64,000 bases of DNA from the NCBI GenBank assembly GCA_951799425.1, contig OX637391.1, positions 17,842,551-17,906,550 of the forward strand, read 5' to 3'. The translations under genes and the position numbers were made by a program. The notes under the pieces were generated by a model, which was not told the origin of the DNA, searched no databases, and saw only the letters and a program-made list of their open reading frames with translations. Source of the stretch: Ilex aquifolium (taxonomy: Eukaryota > Streptophyta > Magnoliopsida > Aquifoliales > Aquifoliaceae). Of this stretch, positions 36,655 to 63,410 are shown one piece after another; the first letter of the stretch is position 1; each line of letters opens with the position of its first letter.

Positions 36655-36775
36655 TAACTACTGAGGGTATTTTGGACAATAGATATTAAAATAGATTCAA
36701 TATTAAACAAGTTTTTTTGATGGACTTATCACTAAATAAGTCTACAGAGAGGGACTGGCCTCTAAATTTCTCTAA
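36655..36775 (+). mobile_element. orphan MULE terminal sequence related to the right end of the 37167-45970 element
   Basis: GAGGGTATTTTGGACA, ATGGACTTATCACTAAATAA, GTCTACAGAGAGGGACTGGC and CTCTAAATTTCTC match, in order, the MULE's right end (AAGGGTATATAGG, GGACTTATCTCCAAACAAGT, CCGTCTAGGGGAACCGGC, CTCCAAATTTCCC). It lies about 400 bp left of the complete element in the orientation of a right end. No left end was identified. Confidence 0.6.
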
Positions 36776-37335
36776 AAAAATTCATATTTCACTAAATTGG
36801 CCCAACCCCAATACACTAACCGAATCCAAATATGGCTCTTTTTACCACTATATATCTAACTTACCAAAGAGTCTAGGCAATGGGTTATTCAACTTCACTT
36901 GATTTTGAAGCTTACTCACATCAATAGAACAACTATTTTACAGTAACTTCGGGCACAAGCATTTACTAATTTTATATAATAGAGAGTTGCCTCCAAAATT
37001 GTCGTTGAAATTTGTACGAATAACGATAAATGTCTTTGATGGGCAGCGGGCACCCACTTGAAATTGCATAGGCCCTTATCCTACTCGATTGGCAAGCCCA
37101 ATAGTCCCTTAACTGTAAAAATTTAGACTGGCCTTGACGAGTCTTAAATGAAACCTGTTTATTTTAGTGAAAATTAGGTGTGAGTCTCCCTAGGTGGACT
37201 TGTTTGGACTTAAATCCAGCAAGGAAACTTATAAGGGGCTAAGTCCATTTTTAAAATTATGTCTAATGAGTTAAGTCAACTTTTTTTTTTAATCCCTAAA
37301 ACACCCTTAACGGTGTTAATTATTGTCATGTACAG

Positions 37336-37393
<58 letters not shown>
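37336..37393. repeat. (TA)n microsatellite, about 28 units
   Basis: An uninterrupted TA run lies inside the left subterminal region of the MULE. Confidence 0.95.
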
Positions 37394-37395
<2 letters not shown>

Positions 37396-37560
37396 ACCGA
37401 AACTGCGTTTTTTATGGAAACTGAATATATCTTTGGTTAAGGCTTGAATCACGGCAGTTTAATAAGATTTCATTATGATTTTAAATTCAAATTCAAAATC
37501 TGAATCACATAAAAATCGTTGAATCACAATTAACGTTTTTTCATTTTTCCAGGAAATAAC

Positions 37561-38065
37561 CGCTGCTTTGTTTCTCCATATCACACGGATACTTCATATT
37601 GTGTTTGGCAGGAGTTCGAAGGTCATAGCAGTAGGATTTTCGTCGGAGATCAAGCAGTAGTAGATACGAAGGTGATACCAGCAGGAGTTTCGGGTTGATA
37701 CCAGTGAGAGTTTGATTTTTCCTATGGCTGCTGTTTATTCTTCTGGTTCGGATTGTGATTTCTGATGTATTTTCATTTTAATTTTATTAGATTACATAAT
37801 GTGATTAACGTTGATTCTCTCACAGGAAGATACATTTGAAAGTTATTTACCGGAATTATTATTAATTAATTTTAGTTTTTTTCCTTTTTACTTGCTGAAA
37901 TTCAATGTTACAAGCATTGAATGTATTGTGATGTTCATCAATCGTTTTGTTTTTCAAAATTATGGTTTAAGTTATTTTTCTCATGTTACTGTTTTGTTAT
38001 AATGAAATTAGAATTTTTTTCATATTTTCATTTTACCTTTATATTGGTTTTCTTGGTTTTAACAG
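37561..38065 (+). promoter_or_regulatory. leader region of the MULE transposase with probable 5'-UTR intron
   Basis: GTAGTAGATACGAAGGTGATACCAGCAGGAG-like repeats (about 37610-37705) precede an AT-rich stretch. That stretch ends TTTTCTTGGTTTTAACAG directly in front of the ATG at 38066, a good acceptor placing a non-coding exon upstream. The donor was not fixed. Confidence 0.4.
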
Positions 38066-40318
38066 ATGGAGGATAACATATTGGTTTGTTGCAAGTATTG
38101 TTCTGAGACTGTTGTGCTAAGAATTACAATGAATTCCACATATGATGATGTGTTACTTGGTTGCCGTGACAATTGGAATGGGTTGAGTTCTAATTGTGTT
38201 GTACTGTCGTACGCTATTCCTGGACATCCGAATTGTGTTTTGCAAAATGATCATGATGTGAGAAACATGTTTTTAATTGCACAATCTGTACAGTTGAATT
38301 TTGTTGAAGTTACTGTTGCTGTTAAAGGGAATGTGGTTCATAATTTTGAGGGTGGGGAAGTGGTGGAAAGTTCAGAAATTATTGTTGACCCTATTGGTTG
38401 CGAGGTTGATCTTCTACCTCGTTTTTGTTCTCACAATAAGAAGGTTTTGTTGACTGATGGATGGTCGAATGGAATAGTAGAGGTTGGTCAGAAGTTTGAG
38501 GGAGGAGTAGTTGAGTTTCGGAATGCTTTATGCAAATATGCAATAGAGGTTGGTTTTCAGTTTAATTATGTGAAGAATGAAAAAACAAGGGTGAAGGCTG
38601 AATGTGCCATGAAATATTCTGCTGGGTGTGAATGGTTTGTTGTTGCTACTCTCCAGCGGATGAATGGATGGTTTTACATTAAGAAACTAAACAATCAGCA
38701 CACATGTGGTGTGGCTGCACGTACTACAAAGAACAAAAGATTGACTTCTAAATTGGTTGGAGGTCTTATTGTTGATAACGTCAGGCAAAAACCTGACACA
38801 CGACCAGTTGATGTGAAAAATATGTTTCATACAGATTATGGGCTGACCATATCGTATGACCAAACTTGGATGAGTGTTGAAAAAGCAAGGGGTATGCTGT
38901 TTGGGGACCATTCATTGTCATACCAGCAATTACGGTGGTATGTACAGACTGCTAATGAAAGCAATCCAGGTAGTCATTTTGTGTTGGAAGGTGATGCAGA
39001 ATCACAGCGTTTTAGTAGGTTGTTCATGTCATTTAAGGCATGTATACATGGATTTAACTACTGTCGACCCATATTGTTTATTGATGGTACATTTTTAAAG
39101 GGTTGATATAAAGGCATTATTTTGTCTGTAACAGCAAAAGATGGCAACCAAGGTAAATTTGATGTCGGGTTATTTTGGTGTTACTGATTTCATGTTACTG
39201 TTAAATTTTCATATTTTGCTTGTATGTTACTGTTTGTTGATGTTACTGTTTGTGTTTGTAAATGTATTGCAGGTTTGTTCCCCTTGGCTTTTGTTGTTGT
39301 TGATTCAGAGAATGAGTGTAATTGGCGTTGGTTTTTAGAGCAATTATCTGAGATTGTTGATAATACTAGGGAACTAACCATTATGTCGGATCGCAACGTT
39401 GGTTTAATGGAAGCAATGCCAAAGGTGTTCCCAACGGTGCACCATTCTTTCTGTCTACAATACCTAAAAGCAAATTTGAGAGATAAGTATAGTGGGGGTC
39501 GCTTTACACATGCGTTTAGCGAGCGTATGGTTTTTTTGTTTACACTGTGTGCTTATGCTCCAACAGATACATTTTTCAATGAAAAGCTTGATGCGTTTCG
39601 AAGTGAAGGAGGAGCCATTGCTGACAAGTTCCTTGAAAACCTACCGTTTGAGAAATGGACGAATGCTTTTTTTAAGGAGCGACGTTATGGGGAGATGTCT
39701 TCAAATGCGGCGGAGTCATTCAACGCTTGGATCACAAAGTCACGTCACCTACCTGTCACAAGTATGATTGACACAATAAGGGGGCAGATCATGAACCAAA
39801 TGGGGTGCCGCTTGAATGCATCGTCACAGTGGAACGGCATTAATTGTCCAAATATTGAAACCAAACTTCAAGCTGCTTTCACTGAGTGTCGTTCCTGGTT
39901 TGTTAGGGTGTCATCAAGTCATGTTTACGAGGTTAATTCACATCCTTCAGTGACTGTAGACATTGAGAGTTGCACGTGCTCATGCCACCAATGGCAGATC
40001 AACGGTTTAGCATGTGTGCATGCTGTTGCTGCAATTCAAAAGAGTGGAAGAAACATCAATGAGTTTGTTGATTACTTTTATCAGGTTACTACTTACAAAT
40101 TGTGTTATTCTGAGCCTATACACCTAATTCCAACACTCGATCGTCCTGACTTTTCAGCGGTTGACGTTGATATGTTGCCACCATTGTCAAAAAAACAACT
40201 AGGTCGTCCAAGGAAGCGTAGATTTAGGTCTAGGGGTGAGTTTGTTAGAAAAATTCATTGTGGCCGTTGTGGCCGTTTATGTAGTCATAATAAGAAGACT
40301 TGTAACGAGCCATTGTAA
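38066..40318 (+). pseudogene. mudrA-like: mudrA-like MULE transposase (exons 38066-39152, 39273-40318), one in-frame TGA
   Basis: Exon 1 ends CAAG|gtaaat and exon 2 starts GTTTGTTC after ATTGCAG; joined in phase they give a frame of 710 codons. Residues 1-90 look like the PB1-like N-terminal domain of plant MURA proteins. About 149-215 is the MuDR DNA-binding domain (FRNALCKYAIEVGFQF, CEWFVVATLQRMNGWFYI). The DDE region starts at FIDGTFLKG (Asp340) and continues with AKDGNQG/LFPLAFVVVDSENECNW and TIMSDRNVGLMEA. A SWIM zinc finger (CTCSCHQWQINGLACVHAVA) and a C-terminal zinc knuckle (CGRCGRLCSHNKKTC) follow. A TGA at 39104-39106 replaces the residue after FLKG, where relatives have Arg (CGA to TGA). 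Otherwise the gene is complete. The protein would bind the element ends and cut and rejoin DNA in the nucleus. Without read-through this copy is inactive. Confidence 0.9.
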
Positions 40319-40859
40319 TATTCCGTATGTTTTTTTAGGAATAAGATGTTACTTTATTTTCCATGTTATTTGAGTTTATCATGTCACACATTGGAATTAT
40401 CATGGTTTATAATGTATGATTTTTTAATACTGTAGTGTTATCATCACATGTTCAATATTTGCCTTCATGTTACTGTTAATGTTACTCCAATGTTACTAGT
40501 TAATGATCATGTGGCAATTAAATATTATTACTTTTTAACAAGTATTTGGTGTGATCACTTGCTTTGGATAATTTTAAAAAATTTAATACACATGTTACTG
40601 TTTGAGTGATTATTTCAATAAGAATGTGGACAGAGTTTCCTTTGTTCGGCAAACATTCCATTAAAATCAAATATCAACCTGTCAATAATTACAATAAATT
40701 TCTCACCAAATATCAAACACCCAACAATTACAACCAATTTATAGGGCTAATATCAACCACCAACCAATTACAACCAATTTTATAACCTATCTTGCAATTA
40801 GTCTAACCAATCCTGCAATCAGCCTACAAATGAATAGCTACCACCCACAACAGAACTGC
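40319..40859. other. intergenic stretch between the two convergent MULE genes
   Basis: Holds five ATGTTAC motifs (from 40344 to 40600) and then repeats of ATATCAA.C..C.AA.AATTACAA in front of the Ulp1 gene stop codon. Both genes must end transcription here. Confidence 0.5.
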
Positions 40860-41689
40860 CTATTTGTTGCGGTATCTCTTTTTCAATCTTGATCTTGTCT
40901 TGTACTCTTCAACACTCCATGCATTCCTATGGTTTATGAAGGTAGACACCATATCGATCCGTAGAGCATTAAGTTGCGGTGGTTTCAATTTATCTTCTAT
41001 GTTTTGTCCACGAGCAAGCTGCTGCATTAAGTAACACACGTACAATCCGCAGTCGACCCTGCATTCATGCTTTTTCGTTAATGATATTAAATTCCGAGAC
41101 ATTAAATGTACACTATTTTTATTATTTACATACGTGTCAGCTCGTTGTTGAGGGCATTTCTCAAATGAAGATATTGGACATTTGATGTCTTGTGTACTGA
41201 CAACAATTTCATCCTTTGTCTTCAATGACTTCCTTTGTCCTTCTTTTGATGCCGACTCCACATAGTTTTTCTGCCATAATACTGTTCTGTTAATTTTGTA
41301 CAACGAAAATATATCACACAATATGGGTTGTTCAGATTTTAATAACTTACCAATATTTTTGCATCCTCCAAAAACTTGTCTATAATTCCACTTCGCGGTT
41401 TCAAAGAGTTGAAATGGATCCATTCACCTGCTTCTGTATCTAGTACAAGCAAGGTCCAGTGGAATGGCGTGGGTTGGGTGCCCTGTGCATCTGAATTCAT
41501 TGGAAACACTAGGAATGGAAAAAATTTCCCCATGTTGAGGTTGTTGTCTATCTCAACTTGCCGTGATGGTTCTTGTTCGTCAATCGTTACGAATGTCTAC
41601 ACTCCAATCAATGGTAACCCATAAATTTTATATATATACCAATGTCAATATATATCAATGTCAATATATAATAAGATCACATATGTTTC

Positions 41690-42025
41690 TTATACAGTAA
41701 CATTCATGTTACTATATTAACATGTGAAATTCTGAACTTTTCAAAGTAACACAAATGTTACTGGGTTTGAGGTAGTATAGTAACATGCATGTTACTATAC
41801 TCACTGTGTCTGATTTGGTAATCCAGTAACCAATAAATTAATGTATGTTACACAATATCACCCAGCACAGACTGTTTTCTTACATATTATCATAGTAACA
41901 CAATCACATCAATGTTAAAATAGTTTTATTCCTAGTAACCCGAAATTATACTGTGTTAATGTTACAGTAGAAACATGTATGTTACAGTAGTAACATGTAT
42001 GTTACTATAGTAACAAATATGTTAC
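41690..42025. repeat. GTAACAT/ATGTTAC motif cluster inside a Ulp1-gene intron
   Basis: At least sixteen GTAAC or GTTAC words lie here on both strands, often as the near-palindrome AGTAACATGCATGTTACTAT or CAGTAACATTCATGTTACTA. Similar clusters occupy the other introns and flanks of this MULE (39170-39260, 40340-40600, 43520-43820, 44980-45400), and they are sparse in the coding exons. Confidence 0.8.
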
Positions 42026-43524
42026 TACAATCGTCATTTCTTTTCAAAATTCCTTCTATTAAGAATTCAAACATAAAATCAAAACAAACTCACCCAGCAA
42101 AGACTGTTGAAAAAGAAACATTTGCAAGTTGCTTCCTCCATCAAAATTTCACCCCAACAATCAATCACCTGTGTGATAATATGCTCTGTGTATTAACAAA
42201 TATTAAAGTATTCATAATTTTGTTTAAATTGAAAAGAGGCATGGTACATTACATTGTTGTGCAGCTTTTCCCCGTTCATGAATTTCAACACATCATCAAC
42301 ATCAAGAGTATTTCCATACTTTCTTCCACACCATAAGGTAGCCCTTTTAATTAAAAAATGACAATGTTAATAACATAGAGAATAAACAGTAATATATATA
42401 AGGTGTTCAATAATGGGGAATTTAGTTACTTACGTTTTCCCCTCAGCCTCAAACATTTGAACCAATTTGGCGTACACTTTTGGGGATAATTTCTTGCATG
42501 CCTTCCATCGTCTAGCTTCAACTCTTTTACTCTCTGGCTTTTCACTAGGCATTTTAATATCCAAATCATCAACATCAATGTAGCTTTCTGATATCTTCTC
42601 CTTCCCTTTAACTTTGTCGGGTTGATCCTGGATTTCAACTTGTTTCATTTTTTTCTTTCCTCCCTGTTTTTTCACCATATACTCAAATTTGTCATCTATC
42701 TATCTTTTTCTTTCTTTCCTTTTGATTTTCCTCACCATTGATGTCTTTTCAACAGCTTCGGTGGGCTGAGGTTTTGGTGGAGTCCCTGTTAACCTTTGAG
42801 TAACGGAATGAACAGCCATATCAGCTACAGTATCATGTAGGGAATTGTTCTTTTCCTCTAATTCATACACCCTAGATTTCAGTGTTTTAATTTGTTCATC
42901 TTGTGTTTCTTTGTTTCTCTCCAATAGATCAACCAAAACCCTTAATTCAGAAATTTGGTTTTCCCTGTCAACTAGTTTCACCGAATAGTTTTCAATCTCT
43001 TTCAATTTATCCTCCCTGTGGTTGCCCCCAAGATTCTTGATGACTGTTCTAAGTGCTTCGTTCTCAACAGTCAACATTTGGATGGTTAATTTTTGAACCA
43101 CATTCTCAGCAATCAATCCAGACTCACCTTCATTGTCATGGGAAGGCTGTTGTGATTTTTCCTCTCGAGGTTCCACTTCATCTGGTTCCAAACATGTTGA
43201 TTCTCGGATGACCACATCAACAAATGCATCAAATGGATGCTTGTTATCATTCTCCTTTTGGACAGGATCATCGTTTGTTGGAACCGAAACTGCATCAGTA
43301 TTTTCAGGAACATCTTCATGAACCACAAGATAATCATCAGCAGTCACATTAGGTTCATCACCTCCAAGTTCCAATTCTGAATTTAAATCAGTCTTGCATG
43401 AAACAGTGTTTTGTTGTGGAACCTCCACTCTATGATGTACATCGTTGCCATTTTTTCGATTTACTTTTTGTAATCTTTTCTCAGCACGTGTTTTCTTAAG
43501 TCTCATTTGGACAACCTGACAACA

Positions 43525-43820
43525 TCATTAGTAACATTTTAAAAATGTATTCAATTATGGTTCAAATTTAATTGAATCAAATGAATGTGCATTACACAGT
43601 AACATCCAAAGTAACATGCATGTTACTATAGTAACATTCACAGTAACATATAATTTAAAAGCTCAATTAACCAATACGTACCCAATAAAAGCTCAATAAT
43701 CATTTTTAAATCAAATGTCTGTGAGTTATACAGTAACTTGCACAGTAACATTAATTACATAGAAACATGCATAGTAACATTTAGGTTTGGACTATTGACA
43801 TCAACATTTTTTGATAGTAA
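43525..43820. repeat. second GTAACAT motif cluster in a Ulp1-gene intron
   Basis: Words include ACAGTAACATCC, AAGTAACATGCATGTTACTA, CATAGTAACATTT and GATAGTAACACT, about ten GTAAC/GTTAC cores within 300 bp, almost all within AGTAACA or its complement. Confidence 0.75.
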
Positions 43821-44840
43821 CACTGAACAACAAAATTAACACTCCCATGCAATTAACAAATTGTCAAAATTAATAGAAATAATTTTACCCAACTTTTAAA
43901 TAATACCTGATCATCTGTGATGTCGGCGAGTGTGTTTTGTCCGAGATACATCCATAGCTTTCTTAAATCCCATTTCATCCAACGGGGGAAAGCATCCGCA
44001 TTCTCGGCCACAACAATAGATGTGTGTTCACATATCAAATACTGCAAAATAAGTTTAGTTACATTATTCTGAACATATATTGGGGAAATTTTTTTTAAAA
44101 TCACTTAATGAAAAATAACAATGAAAAACTTACAGGTAATAGTACTACGCAACCGGTTACTGCACTCGGTGTGTGAATCTTCAACCGTATAGAATTAAAG
44201 ATTGCATCAATTGTTGCTTGACACCAGTCATATCTTTTGATTTCATCTAAATTCTCAATATATGAGACATACCCCCACCCAATTGTTTGACCCATATTTG
44301 TAATCAGCAATGTCACTAAGACATATAATGAGAATAACCTAGCAAAGTCTTCACAATCATCCTTAGCATCACTCCTGGCAGCATCCTCCAATTTGCTTTT
44401 TATAATTGGTGCATTCAATTTTTTTGTGTTATTGAATCTCCTCCTTACAAAATCTGACAGTTTCTTTGCACTTTGAGGGGACAAAATTGGATCCACACCA
44501 TTTTCTATACCAAAAATCAGGGATACATCACTCTTCCTTATCTTTAAATTTTTCCCACCAATTCTAAATGTTGATGTTTCAACATCAAATGTGTTAATGA
44601 TATCCACAATAATTTTGTCATTCTTCTTGAACCATTCCTTATCAACTTCATATTTTGATATTGCCTGATACAAATACCAAAATGGGGTTCTCCTCAATTG
44701 TTCTTCGTGAACTTCTTTGATGTTTAGTTCACTAATAACCTTCACCAATGGCAGTAAGTTGGACCTGAATTGGTGAAATGAGGATGTTTTTGGAGCCATC
44801 AACCTATAATATGACAGTTACATATAAATAACTGTGTAGG

Positions 44841-45182
44841 AGGTATAATAACATTACACCAATTCACTAGACTTAATGGATATATAACAATTAATCAAAA
44901 AATCAACAACAACCCCTTCACTCTTCATCAACTACATAAGATTCATTAAAAGTTAAAAAACAGAAAGGGGTTGATCAGTAACATGTTCATAGTAACACCA
45001 ATAATTTAGTAAGGTATAATAACATTAGACCAATTCACTAGACTTAATGGATATACAACAATTAATCAAAAAATCAACAACAACCCCTTCACTCTTCATC
45101 AACTACATAAGATTCATTAAAAGTTAAAAAACAGAAAGGGGTTGATCAGTAACATGTTCATAGTAACACCAATAATTTAGTA
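44841..45182. repeat. tandem duplication, two 171-bp copies, in the MULE
   Basis: The unit begins AGGTATAATAACATTA at 44841 and 45012 and ends ACACCAATAATTTAGTAA. The copies differ at only a few positions, so the duplication is young. Each carries one AGTAACATGTTCATAGTAAC motif pair. It lies just upstream of the Ulp1-gene start codon, where its promoter would be expected. Confidence 0.9.
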
Positions 45183-45970
45183 ATACCCACAGTACCAAAT
45201 CAAATCCATACATTTGAAATTATAAAATCACATAGTAACCTGAATAGGTTCAGTTAACATATTTTGTTAGTAACGAATAATGGTTTTGGGAATTTTTTTT
45301 TCCTATCACAGTAACATTAGATTATCCAAAGAAACCACATAAATTCCATGAAAAAACAAAAATAACAATATCCCATTTTTTTATAAAGTAACATGATCTC
45401 ACAGTTTATTTTCAATAAATTTTTAACAAAAAAAAATTACACATTATGAACGATATTGGGTGTAAATGATGTTTTAAAACCCTAAAACAACTTCAAAGTT
45501 TATGTAAAATCACATACCTCTAAAATCTTTTAAAGAATCCCAAAGATTTGTGAAGATTTCAAGAATGCCGAGAACACAAATAGATTTTCGCCAATGAATG
45601 TTGAACGGTAAAACCGATTTCGGTTTTCTTGTTTGAAATAATTTTGAAATTTGAAAAAAGAGTGGGTTTGGGGTAAATGTAGTGTTTTAGGGTTTTTCGG
45701 AGAAGGCTAAAGAGAAGGAATTGATGTCTATCGCCGGATTTGTCGCCTGGTTTGATGTTTATCGCCGAATTCGTCGCCTGTGTAGCCGAAGGAAATGAAG
45801 CGGCAGTTCAGTATTGAAACAAACGGAAACTTTGACGTCGTTTCGTGTTTTCCACAAAATAAGGGTATATAGGTAAAAAGAGCAAAAAATGGACTTCAAA
45901 CCAAATAAGTTTTCTCTTAGGACTTATCTCCAAACAAGTCCGTCTAGGGGAACCGGCCTCCAAATTTCCC
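45183..45970. other. right subterminal region of the MULE
   Basis: AT-rich with several more AGTAACAT motifs up to 45400, then GCCGGATTTGTCGCCTG and GCCGAATTCGTCGCCTG direct repeats (about 45735-45782), then the right inverted end. Probably the Ulp1-gene promoter and leader. Confidence 0.5.
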
Positions 45971-45979
45971 TTTATTTTA

Positions 45980-60439: not shown

Positions 60440-63410
60440 AATAGTCCAAAAGACCAGCTTCAGTATGGTGAGGTGAGGTGAGGTTGAGTTGCTACTTTTG
60501 CATGAATTGGTGGCTTCTGTGCCAATTTTGGGTAGATTTTGTGTCAACTTTAGGTGGCTTCTGTGTCAACTTTGAGTGACTTTTTGTGTCAAATGTGACT
60601 TTTATTTCCAAGAGCTGGTGACTTCTATGCCAACTTTAGGTGACTTCTGTGCCAACTTTGGGTGACTTTCGTGTCATGTTTGGGTGATTTCTGTGACAAG
60701 AATTGGTGAATCCTGTGTCAAGAGTTGTTGACTTTTGTGTCAACTTTGGGTGACTTCTGTGTCAAGAGTTGGTAACTTCTGTGTCAAGAATTGTTAACTT
60801 TTGTGTCAACTTTAGGTAACTTTTGTGTCAATAGTTGATGACTTATATGTCGAGAATTGTTGACTTTTGTGTCAACTTTAGGTAACTTTTGTGTCAAGAT
60901 TTGATGACTCCTGTGTCAAAAGTTGATGACTTTTGTGTCAAAAGTTGATAACTTCTGTGTCAACTTTGGGTGACTTATGTGTTAAGAGTCTGTGACTTCT
61001 GTTTCAAGAATTGTTGACTTTTGTGTCAACTTTGGGTGACTTCTGTGTCAAATTTGAGTGACTTCTATGTCAAGAGTTAATGTAGCAGTCTTATGTGACT
61101 TATGTGGAAGCCTTATGTGACTTATGTGACAGTCTTATGTGACTTGTGTGTCAGTCTTAGGTGACTTCTGCGACAACCTTAGGTGACTTCTGTGACAGCC
61201 TTAAAGTGACTTCTGCGTTAAACCTTAAGTGACTTCTGTGTCAGCCTTAAAGTGACTTATGTATCAGCCTTGGGTGACTTCTGTAACAGCCTTAGGTGAT
61301 TTCTGCGTCAGCCTTAGGTGAGTTCTGTGTCAGCCTAAAGTGACCTCTCTGTCAGTCTAAAATGACTTTTGTGTCAGCCTCAAGTGACTTCTGTGGCAGA
61401 CTTAAGTGACTTCTGTGACATCCTTAAGTGACTTCTGCGGCAACCTTAAGTGACTTCTGCGGCAGCCTCAAGTGACTTCTGTGTTAGCCTCAAGTGATTT
61501 CTGTGTCAGCCTTAAAGTGACTATTGTGTCAGTCTGAAGTGACTTCTGTGTCAGCGTGAAGTGACTTTTGCGGTAGCCTCAAGTGACTTCTGCGGTAGCC
61601 TCAAGTGACTTTTGTGGCAACCTTAAGTGACTTCTGTGGTAGGCTCAAGTGACTTCTGCGACAGGCTCAAGAGACTTCTGCGGCAACCTTAAGTGACTTC
61701 TGTGACAGCCTCAAGTGACTTCTGCATCAGCCTCAAGTGACTTATGTGTCAGCCTCAAGTGACTTCTGCGACAGCTTCAAGTGACTTTTGTATCAGCCTT
61801 AAAGTAGCTTCTGTGTTAGCCTAAGGTGACTTTTGCGGCAACTTTAAGTGAGTTTGTGGCAGCCACAAGTGACTTATGTGGCACCCTTAAGCAGTGTTCT
61901 CAGAACCGGACCGGACCTACCGGTCAGACCGTGAACTGGAGCCTAGACCGGTTTGGTTCTTGAGTTGGATAGTATAGGCATGGGAATCGTTTTTGAACTG
62001 TTAAACTGGCCGGTTTTTATGAAAATTGGTGAACTGGCGGTTTGATGTTAACTGGCTGTTTGATTGAACAAATACTCAATTTGCTAAAACCATGGGGGGG
62101 GGGGAGAGAGAGAGAGAGAGAGAGGAGATGGTTTTTGGTGGAGCAGTGTTAGCATATGGGGGAGCTGGTGGTTCTCTTTGTCGTCCTCTTAAATCGTAAC
62201 GTGCGAAGATCTATATAAAGGGAGACAATATTGAAAAAAATCCCTCTTTTTTAGGGCAATTTTGCCCTAATCTAATTCAATTCCAGTCGATCCTCCAGGC
62301 AACGGTCCTCCCAGGCGACAACTCAAGCAAGTGGCGATGGCTCTGGCGAACTCTCAGGTGATCTCCTCTCTTGAGTGGTGACGGCTCAGGCAATTCTCCT
62401 CTTGAGTGGAGACGGCTCAGGTGACTGATTTATCCTTGCTTCTTGAACGGGAAGTCTCTCTCTCTCTTAGAAACGGATCGCCTCATCTCTTTTCTTCTCT
62501 TCTCTTCACTCTCTCTCACGCCTCGGCAAACAACACATAAGATGCGAGAGTATGCCATAGTTCCTGAGTCCCTTTGTCTCAAATAGTTTATGGAGTTCTC
62601 TTTTTTTGCCTTATTTACTCTCTTGCCCCTGTGTAATTTATTCCAAAGAATGTTTGATGGAAAATAGAATGAATAAATTAGAGTGAAAATATTTTATATT
62701 TTTTTAAGGTAAATTACTTATGTTTTATAATTTTTTTAATTTTTTGTTATACTATCGGTTCGACCAGTTGACCCAACGGTTGAACCATTGACTCGGTCTC
62801 TCTGCCGATTTAATGTCTGGTCTGGTTCTGATAACATTGGTCTCAAGTGACTTCTGTGGCAACCTTAAGTGACTTTTATGGCAGGCTCAAGTGACTTCTT
62901 TGGCAGGCTCAAGTGACTTCTACGGTAGGCTCAAGTGACTTCTGCGGCAACCTCAAGTGACTTCTGTGTCAGCCTTAAAGTGACTTCTGTGTCAGCCTGA
63001 AGTGACTTCTACGGCAGCCTGTAGTGACTTTTGCGGCAGCCTAAAATGACTTCTACTGCAGTCTCAAGTGACTTTTGCGACAGGCCAAGTGACTATAGCA
63101 GCAACTTTAAGGGATTTCTGTGGCAGCCTCAAGTGACTTATGCGTCAGCCTCAAGTAACTTATGCGACAGCCTCAAGTGACTTTTGTATCAGTCTTAATG
63201 TCACTTATGGGTCAGCCTTAGGTGACTTATGCGACAGCCTTAGGTGACTTATGCGTCAGCCTTAGGTGAGTGTCAACCTTAGGTGACTTCTGTGGCAGCA
63301 TTAAAGTGACTTATGTGTCAGCCTTAAAGTGACTTTTGTGGCAGCCTTATGTGACTTATGCGACACCCTTCGGTGACTTCAGTGGCTACTTTAAAGTGAC
63401 TTCTCCCAAT
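60440..63410. repeat. minisatellite of roughly 20-22-bp units, interrupted by a MITE
   Basis: The core is GTGACTTCTGTGTCA. The first part (to about 61080) alternates GTGACTTCTGTGTCAACTTTGG and GTGACTTCTGTGTCAAGAGTTG. The second part uses AGCCTTAAGTGACTTCTGTG and AGCCTCAAGTGACTTCTGCG. There are well over a hundred units. The array resumes at 62840 after an inserted element. It has no spacer diversity and is not a CRISPR array. Together with 59420-60300 and 63700-64000 it resembles the tandem-repeat-rich 3' regions known from Ogre/Tat retrotransposons. Confidence 0.9.
61892..62839. mobile_element. 948-bp non-autonomous hAT-like element in the minisatellite
   Basis: Ends are CAGTGTTCTCAGAACCGGAC and, inverted, CAATGTTATCAGAACCAGAC, with further weaker similarity inside. 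The flanks CCCTTAAG and GTCTCAAG could be an 8-bp duplication of a minisatellite CYTYAAG word with mutations. The inside holds a (G)n(GA)n run at about 62093-62125 and CAGG.GA.GGCTCAGG-like repeats (62290-62420). No transposase. Confidence 0.75.

Follow-up and report, generated by a model that had tools for sequence, protein, structure and literature searches.

The DNA analysed here, hereafter the window, is a 64,000-nucleotide stretch of Ilex aquifolium contig OX637391.1 (positions 17,842,551–17,906,550), and the whole genome (800,232,872 bases in 103 contigs) was searched alongside it. The window contains a Mutator-like element (MULE) of 8,804 bp at 37167–45970. Its left and right ends form inverted repeats that are 75% identical over 65 bp, and a 9-bp target duplication flanks it. 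From left to right it carries a transposase gene and a convergent gene for a Ulp1-type protein, with the exon borders of both placed by eye from open frames and splice signals (Table 1). The transposase domains PF03108, PF10551, and PF04434 are all above their Pfam cut-offs, identifying a MULE transposase with a SWIM finger, and the Ulp1/C48 domain is recognized as well (PF02902, 23.0 bits against a cut-off of 20.7) and is supported by relatives. Each gene of the window copy has one in-frame stop, that of the transposase at 39104–39106 in exon 1, and many relatives among the genome matches are stop-free in the one exon per gene that was compared. The non-coding DNA of the element is filled with the word AGTAACAT, and we consider it probable that these clusters are the cis half of an anti-silencing system like that of the VANC proteins of Arabidopsis VANDAL elements, with the Ulp1-type protein recognizing its own family.

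The word AGTAACAT occurs 29 times in the non-coding bases of the element and not at all in its 4,833 coding bases, while shuffled non-coding pieces averaged 0.42 and reached 5 at most (500 dinucleotide shuffles, as for the other shuffled values given here); the remaining 55,238 bases of the window hold 5. The original prediction, made from the letters of the window, was that about 40 or more GTAAC/GTTAC cores lie in non-coding DNA with few in the exons, and that composition alone would give far fewer. We counted 49 such cores in the non-coding part (shuffle mean 9.5, maximum 18) and 9 in the coding part (shuffle mean 6.5), with 75 in the remaining window bases, so both statements hold, and the enrichment withstood the shuffled-sequence test that had been suggested for it. 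The near-palindrome it described was also found, as AGTAACATGCATGTTACT at 41779 and 43610. Only its bounds (39153–45430) were too narrow, as the element itself is longer and has two more cores, at 37907 and 37985. Motif counts were made on the inner bounds 37188–45949 (3,929 non-coding bases) and were unchanged when the full element was used (3,971 bases).

When 47 non-coding sites were aligned on GTAAC, the strongest columns read A-Y-A-GTAAC-A-T, in which GTAAC is the search word itself, and a weaker bias was seen in some flanking columns, above all nine bases after the G (0.52 bits) and six bases before it (0.35 bits). With the signal lying mostly within about ten bases, the sites are not explained by simple copying of long units. 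A 171-bp tandem duplication in the 5′ flank of the Ulp1 gene (44841–45183, 98% matching) does hold four of the eight AGTAAC found there; by doubling a motif pair it represents a recent motif gain by tandem repetition, and 28 copies of AGTAACAT are left when its second copy is removed. A spacing of 12 bp also recurs in the element, between direct copies (4) and head-to-head copies (6). On the transposase side GTTACT reads in gene sense at 10 of 10 non-coding sites, as it does at 8 of 8 in the 5′ flank of the Ulp1 gene, and orientation is mixed (17:7) in the Ulp1-gene introns. It could be argued that an ancestor gained many copies of the word by chance, through neutral tandem slippage, and that these were then simply copied, given that part of the copies sit in the 171-bp repeat and in short arrays, and given a high turnover between copies in which single sites were significantly conserved in one of ten comparisons. 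We find this quite improbable, since the ten-base signal stands among unlike flanks, none of the 29 full words is in coding DNA, orientation is biased, and the arrays of shorter relatives use other spacers.

Table 1. Features of the Mutator-like element and its immediate borders (window positions).
Feature	Position	Strand	Remarks
Left target site duplication TTTATTTTA, 9 bp	37158..37166		Identical to 45971-45979, no mismatch
Left terminal region	37167..37310	+	Inverted-repeat core 37188-37252
Two motif-like sites, ATGTTACA and ATGTTACT, upstream of transposase start	37907..37990	+	Cores at 37907 and 37985
Transposase exon 1, DBD_Tnp_Mut domain	38066..39153	+	Pfam PF03108, E 2.4e-12
Transposase intron	39154..39272	+	Four GTTACT, all in gene sense
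Transposase exon 2, MULE domain and SWIM zinc finger	39273..40318	+	PF10551 E 4.1e-12, PF04434 E 1.9e-8
Spacer between convergent genes	40348..40600	+	Five GTTACT, all in transposase sense
Last two Ulp1-gene exons, C48 protease core	40863..41599	-	HWTLLVLD ... HFNS ... DCG
Ulp1-gene intron, densest motif cluster	41600..42092	-	Includes five head-to-head pairs 12 bp apart
Ulp1-gene middle exon, charged, coiled-coil-like by eye	42435..43517	-	In-frame stop 42700-42702 in window copy
Ulp1-gene intron, second motif cluster	43518..43906	-	Nine AGTAAC and one GTTACT on + strand
Ulp1-type gene exon 1, N-terminal domain	44135..44799	-	Weakly PMD/DUF1985-like, candidate motif reader
5′ flank of Ulp1 gene	44800..45949	-	Eight AGTAAC on + strand (GTTACT in gene sense)
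Right terminal region	45870..45970	-	Inverted-repeat core 45885-45949
Right target site duplication TTTATTTTA, 9 bp	45971..45979		

Across the genome, at least 150 relatives of the N-terminal Ulp1-gene exon exist, with identities from 100 down to 39% (150 scored from 928 first-look candidates). Eight of these were taken as 6.2-kb pieces for de novo 8-mer counts, and 20 more were sampled at 2 kb each. The word obtained was again AGTAACAT in L035 and L036 (N-terminal identity of 84 and 74%), and AGTGACAT took its place in L038 and L040 (49 and 46%); the counts pointed to AGAGTGAC in L037 and ACAGTTA(C) in L042 (41%), with no clean word emerging from these counts for L039 and L041. A tree was built from 34 N-terminal domains, and the motif of each row was scored as the commonest AGTNAC in the 1.3 kb before the Ulp1 gene. 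All 14 rows of the clade that includes the window element (57–100% identical; support 100/100) favour AGTAAC(AT), and the comparison with related MULEs that had been suggested as a refuting test did not refute the prediction. All six rows of a T clade (40–42% identical; support 100/100) favour AGTTAC(A), and three rows forming a G clade (46–49% identical; support 96/89) favour AGTGAC(AT). Motif spelling therefore differs between related families, with A, G, and T types in three clades that make up 23 of the 34 rows. The chi-square for fourth base by clade, with the three clades pooled, is 174, a value inflated by relatedness and by the sorting of clades on the motif. In L050, the sister of the G clade, AGTTAC occurs 5 times and AGTGAC twice. 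Two further clades of Ulp1 genes were seen that seem to use other words, namely AGTGTAA(C) in L054–L057 and AATGTCAC with GATGCAAC in L039, L041, and L049.

Orientation is shared across the three types, GTNACT reading in gene sense upstream of the Ulp1 gene 139 times against 9 in the 14 A-type elements, 51 against 4 in the six T-type elements, and 13 against 3 in the three G-type elements. Clusters in 5′ regions and introns, mostly in gene sense, are what could be expected if the reader were instead a host factor, for example a transcription factor driving both genes. We think this very unlikely, as the spelling follows the clade of the element within a single host, and as arrays are kept in relatives where no gene was found in the stretch read.

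Those relatives came from counts of the words across the genome. For AGTAACAT there are 7,049 direct pairs separated by 2–17 bases, compared with 199 for its reversed form, and for the T-type word CAGTTACA there are 645 pairs compared with 39. The near-palindrome AGTAACATGCATGTTACT is found 48 times and its reversed word 0 times, with 46 of the 48 sites no more than 10 kb from a transposase or Ulp1-gene match. The arrays were sampled from the first 100 AGTAACAT pairs, all within the first 7.3 Mb of contig OX637391.1, where a hand count gave about 30 clusters; three of these are in two-gene elements, and 23 of the other 27 were taken. Extrapolating from about 30 clusters per 100 pairs, the genome would hold, very roughly, two thousand AGTAACAT clusters. 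In the stretches read for the 23 AGTAACAT arrays and six T-type arrays, neither a transposase nor a Ulp1 match was found at E 0.01; most of these stretches are 1.5–2.6 kb long, so that genes farther away are possible. A splicing signal was ruled out as a general explanation because the arrays are kept in such stretches without genes. Same-orientation spacings in these non-autonomous arrays cluster at 12–13 and 20–22 bp, and we make no claim of helical spacing because the arrays are related to one another and periods from 9 to 10.5 give similar Rayleigh values.

Of the 23 arrays, 20 have an end that is homologous to those of the window element (E 0.001), compared with one of 32 control pieces of the window, which held the window element's own left end and a neighbouring relic. 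Both ends fall within the stretch at five loci (L063, L070, L071, L073, and L076). Six loci besides the window were examined for a pair of ends flanked by a target duplication. The 9-bp duplication is perfect at L063 (3,430 bp) and L073 (978 bp) and has a single mismatch at L091, and none was found at L070, L071, and L076. The type of end also goes with the type of motif: each of the 20 A arrays with an end match is closer to the A end, and an end was found in three of six AGTTACA arrays, each time closer to that of the AGTTACA element L042 than to that of the window element, giving agreement in 23 of 23 arrays with any end match. Ends and motif being kept together in shorter relatives would be expected of any trans factor in movement, and the array of L063 lies about 490–910 bp inside its left end. 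This brings up the alternative that the transposase itself binds the motifs as subterminal sites, needed for transposition and not for anti-silencing, for which the internal repeats of Ac and Spm offer a comparison. We judge this unlikely, since motifs of the window element are scattered over introns and the intergenic spacer, kilobases from the ends, and since distant relatives, including T-type ones, keep a mean identity of 65% in the transposase and 43% in the Ulp1-gene N-terminal domain, making the latter the protein part that changed more. About 400 bp to the left of the window element there is also an isolated second end of a related MULE (36688–36782), in right-end orientation, which scores 47.3 bits against the AGTTACA-type end and 41.9 against the window element's own end.

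This brings us back to the Ulp1-type protein as the candidate reader of the motif. Among the matches listed, a convergent Ulp1-gene N-terminal match lies no more than 12 kb away for 88 of 117 transposase matches, the N-terminal domain is the more diverged of the two proteins' compared parts in 69 of 87 pairs (5 ties), and in the 31 pairs of the most distant band the mean identity to the window element is 65.1% for the transposase and 42.7% for the N-terminal domain. The faster divergence of this domain among distant relatives favours, without proving, the Ulp1-type protein as the reader. A dense non-coding word that has other spellings in relatives and is kept in gene-less relatives is probably a docking code for a protein encoded by the element. 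The protein has a charged middle between an N-terminal domain like PMD/DUF1985 and a Ulp1 (C48) protease domain, and would most likely bind the motifs that stand densely, and mostly in one orientation, in its own family's non-coding DNA. It would then remove silencing marks, probably DNA methylation among them, at the bound motifs, which would allow the transposase to be expressed and family members, even short gene-less ones, to move. The C48 domain of the window copy keeps the catalytic His and Cys. Canonical Ulp1 proteases have a catalytic Asp where these elements read Asn (H[FY]N), the residue present in the window copy (41350–41599) and in six of six relatives with the exon visible (L035, L036, L038, L039, L040, and L041). 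Judging from this residue, it is possible that protease activity has been changed or lost, and any role for it in the mechanism is conjectural. A structure of the N-terminal domain predicted from the single window sequence had a mean predicted local distance difference test score (pLDDT) of 38.5 and was not used.

Several observations weigh against the Ulp1-type protein being a VANC-like reader of a family-specific motif. Its N-terminal domain matches PMD at E 3.8e-5 and DUF1985 at E 0.056, both under the Pfam cut-offs, and relatives L038 and L042 match PMD only (E 0.04 and 0.17). The clear inverted repeats of the element (65 bp at 75%) differ from classic VANDALs, which lack them or have degenerate ones. 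In the closest band (29 pairs among the matches listed) the N-terminal domain, at 94.3%, is no less conserved than the transposase, at 93.9%. Eleven of the 34 tree rows fit none of the three types, having mixed, sparse, or other words; L052 and L053 lie outside the A clade yet weakly favour AGTAAC (4 and 5 copies), all copies in L052 being in the context AGTAACAC or AGTAACAT, and L059 within the T clade is nearly tied (AGTTAC 10, AGTAAC 9). The match between spelling and protein is also partly a matter of descent, because related elements have other inherited features in common. Conservation of single sites beyond that of same-composition hexamers was significant for L035 (14/20 vs 37/131, p 0.0006) and not in the other nine comparisons, several of which had very few sites. 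In the genome-wide counts, the G-type word AGTGACAT shows a weak contrast, with 110 pairs against 30 reversed. The control is itself imperfect, as AGTCACAT, a C-type word favoured by no sampled clade, gave 52 pairs against 1 reversed, an excess that arises because unrelated tandem repeats fool the reversed-word control. A 22-bp tandem repeat with AGTCACAT is found in the window itself (61093–61144); it is a member of a dispersed genome set and apparently unrelated to MULEs.

Taken further, the agreement of ends and motif would make the two a two-part membership badge, and the fourth base of AGTNAC (N = A, G, or T) could be a specificity switch of the Ulp1-type reader. We put forward only tentatively, as somewhat less likely to be right than wrong, that one genome here holds several parallel, mutually blind anti-silencing codes, differing chiefly in that one letter and each with its own ends and gene-less followers. 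The layout of Arabidopsis VANDALs is seen here in an 800-Mb genome with many families side by side, providing a natural series of candidate readers and of motifs that differ at one base. With such a series, VANC-type DNA recognition and the contribution of the Ulp1 domain become directly testable by domain and motif swaps.

Our literature search found no such motifs outside Arabidopsis in titles or abstracts, and a search with the letters AGTAACAT and 'transposable element' gave no title on MULE motifs among those listed. Nor did the search turn up any account of the spellings found here, of sister families within one genome whose motifs differ by a single letter, or of end types that go with motif types; the likeliest source, Sasaki et al. 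2022, was outside the search and reportedly deals with how motifs diversify, with the influence of their density and helical spacing, and with action on copies that are non-autonomous.

The interpretation given in the original prediction is supported in part. Its analogy to VANDAL and VANC is well supported, as the motif is non-coding, dense, mostly in one orientation, family-specific, and kept in gene-less relatives with matching ends. In Arabidopsis the motif bound by VANC21 is YAGTATTAY, and the one linked to VANC6 is AGTTGTCC/AGTTGTAC. These VANC motifs lie densely in non-coding DNA, some of them in tandem repeats, with a single orientation for VANC21, and methylation is lost when the VANC proteins are expressed (Hosaka et al. 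2017, PMC5735166). The Ilex element resembles VANDAL21/VANC21 in being a Mutator-like element with a second protein and a dense, non-coding, same-orientation motif with tandem repeats, in having a motif that varies between related families, and in having a transposase (VANA in VANDALs) more conserved than the reader (VANC) (PMC5735166). The motif letters, YAGTATTAY in VANDAL21 and YAGTAACAT here, part ways after YAGTA, and binding and hypomethylation have been demonstrated for VANDAL21/VANC21 (PMC5735166), both being predictions for the Ilex element. It differs further in that its second protein has a Ulp1 domain and an N-terminal domain that is weakly DUF1985-like, and in its clear inverted repeats, though some members of the VANDAL clade do have terminal inverted repeats (PMC6446971). 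By analogy, the element appears to work like VANDAL/VANC; we leave its VANDAL membership open because the inverted repeats are clear and the DUF1985 cut-off was missed.

A further close parallel is with the KIU/KAONASHI VANDALs of Arabidopsis, which share a Ulp1-carrying second protein and recognition of motifs of their own kind. Contrary to the original prediction, which knew of no description for Ulp1-carrying elements, a review describes KIU as recognizing specific non-coding motifs and hypomethylating its own kind (PMC13317346, citing Sasaki et al. 2022), a hypomethylation that would apply to the Ilex element by extension. Capture of Ulp1 is described there as old and conserved in eudicots, and Ulp1-type sequence is carried, as in Ilex, by MULEs of melon, rice, and grapevine (PMC13317346; grapevine also PMC2528002). 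The kind of system is therefore already published, Ulp1-carrying VANDALs included, and the Ilex families, with their spellings and their matching of ends to motifs, are new instances of it.

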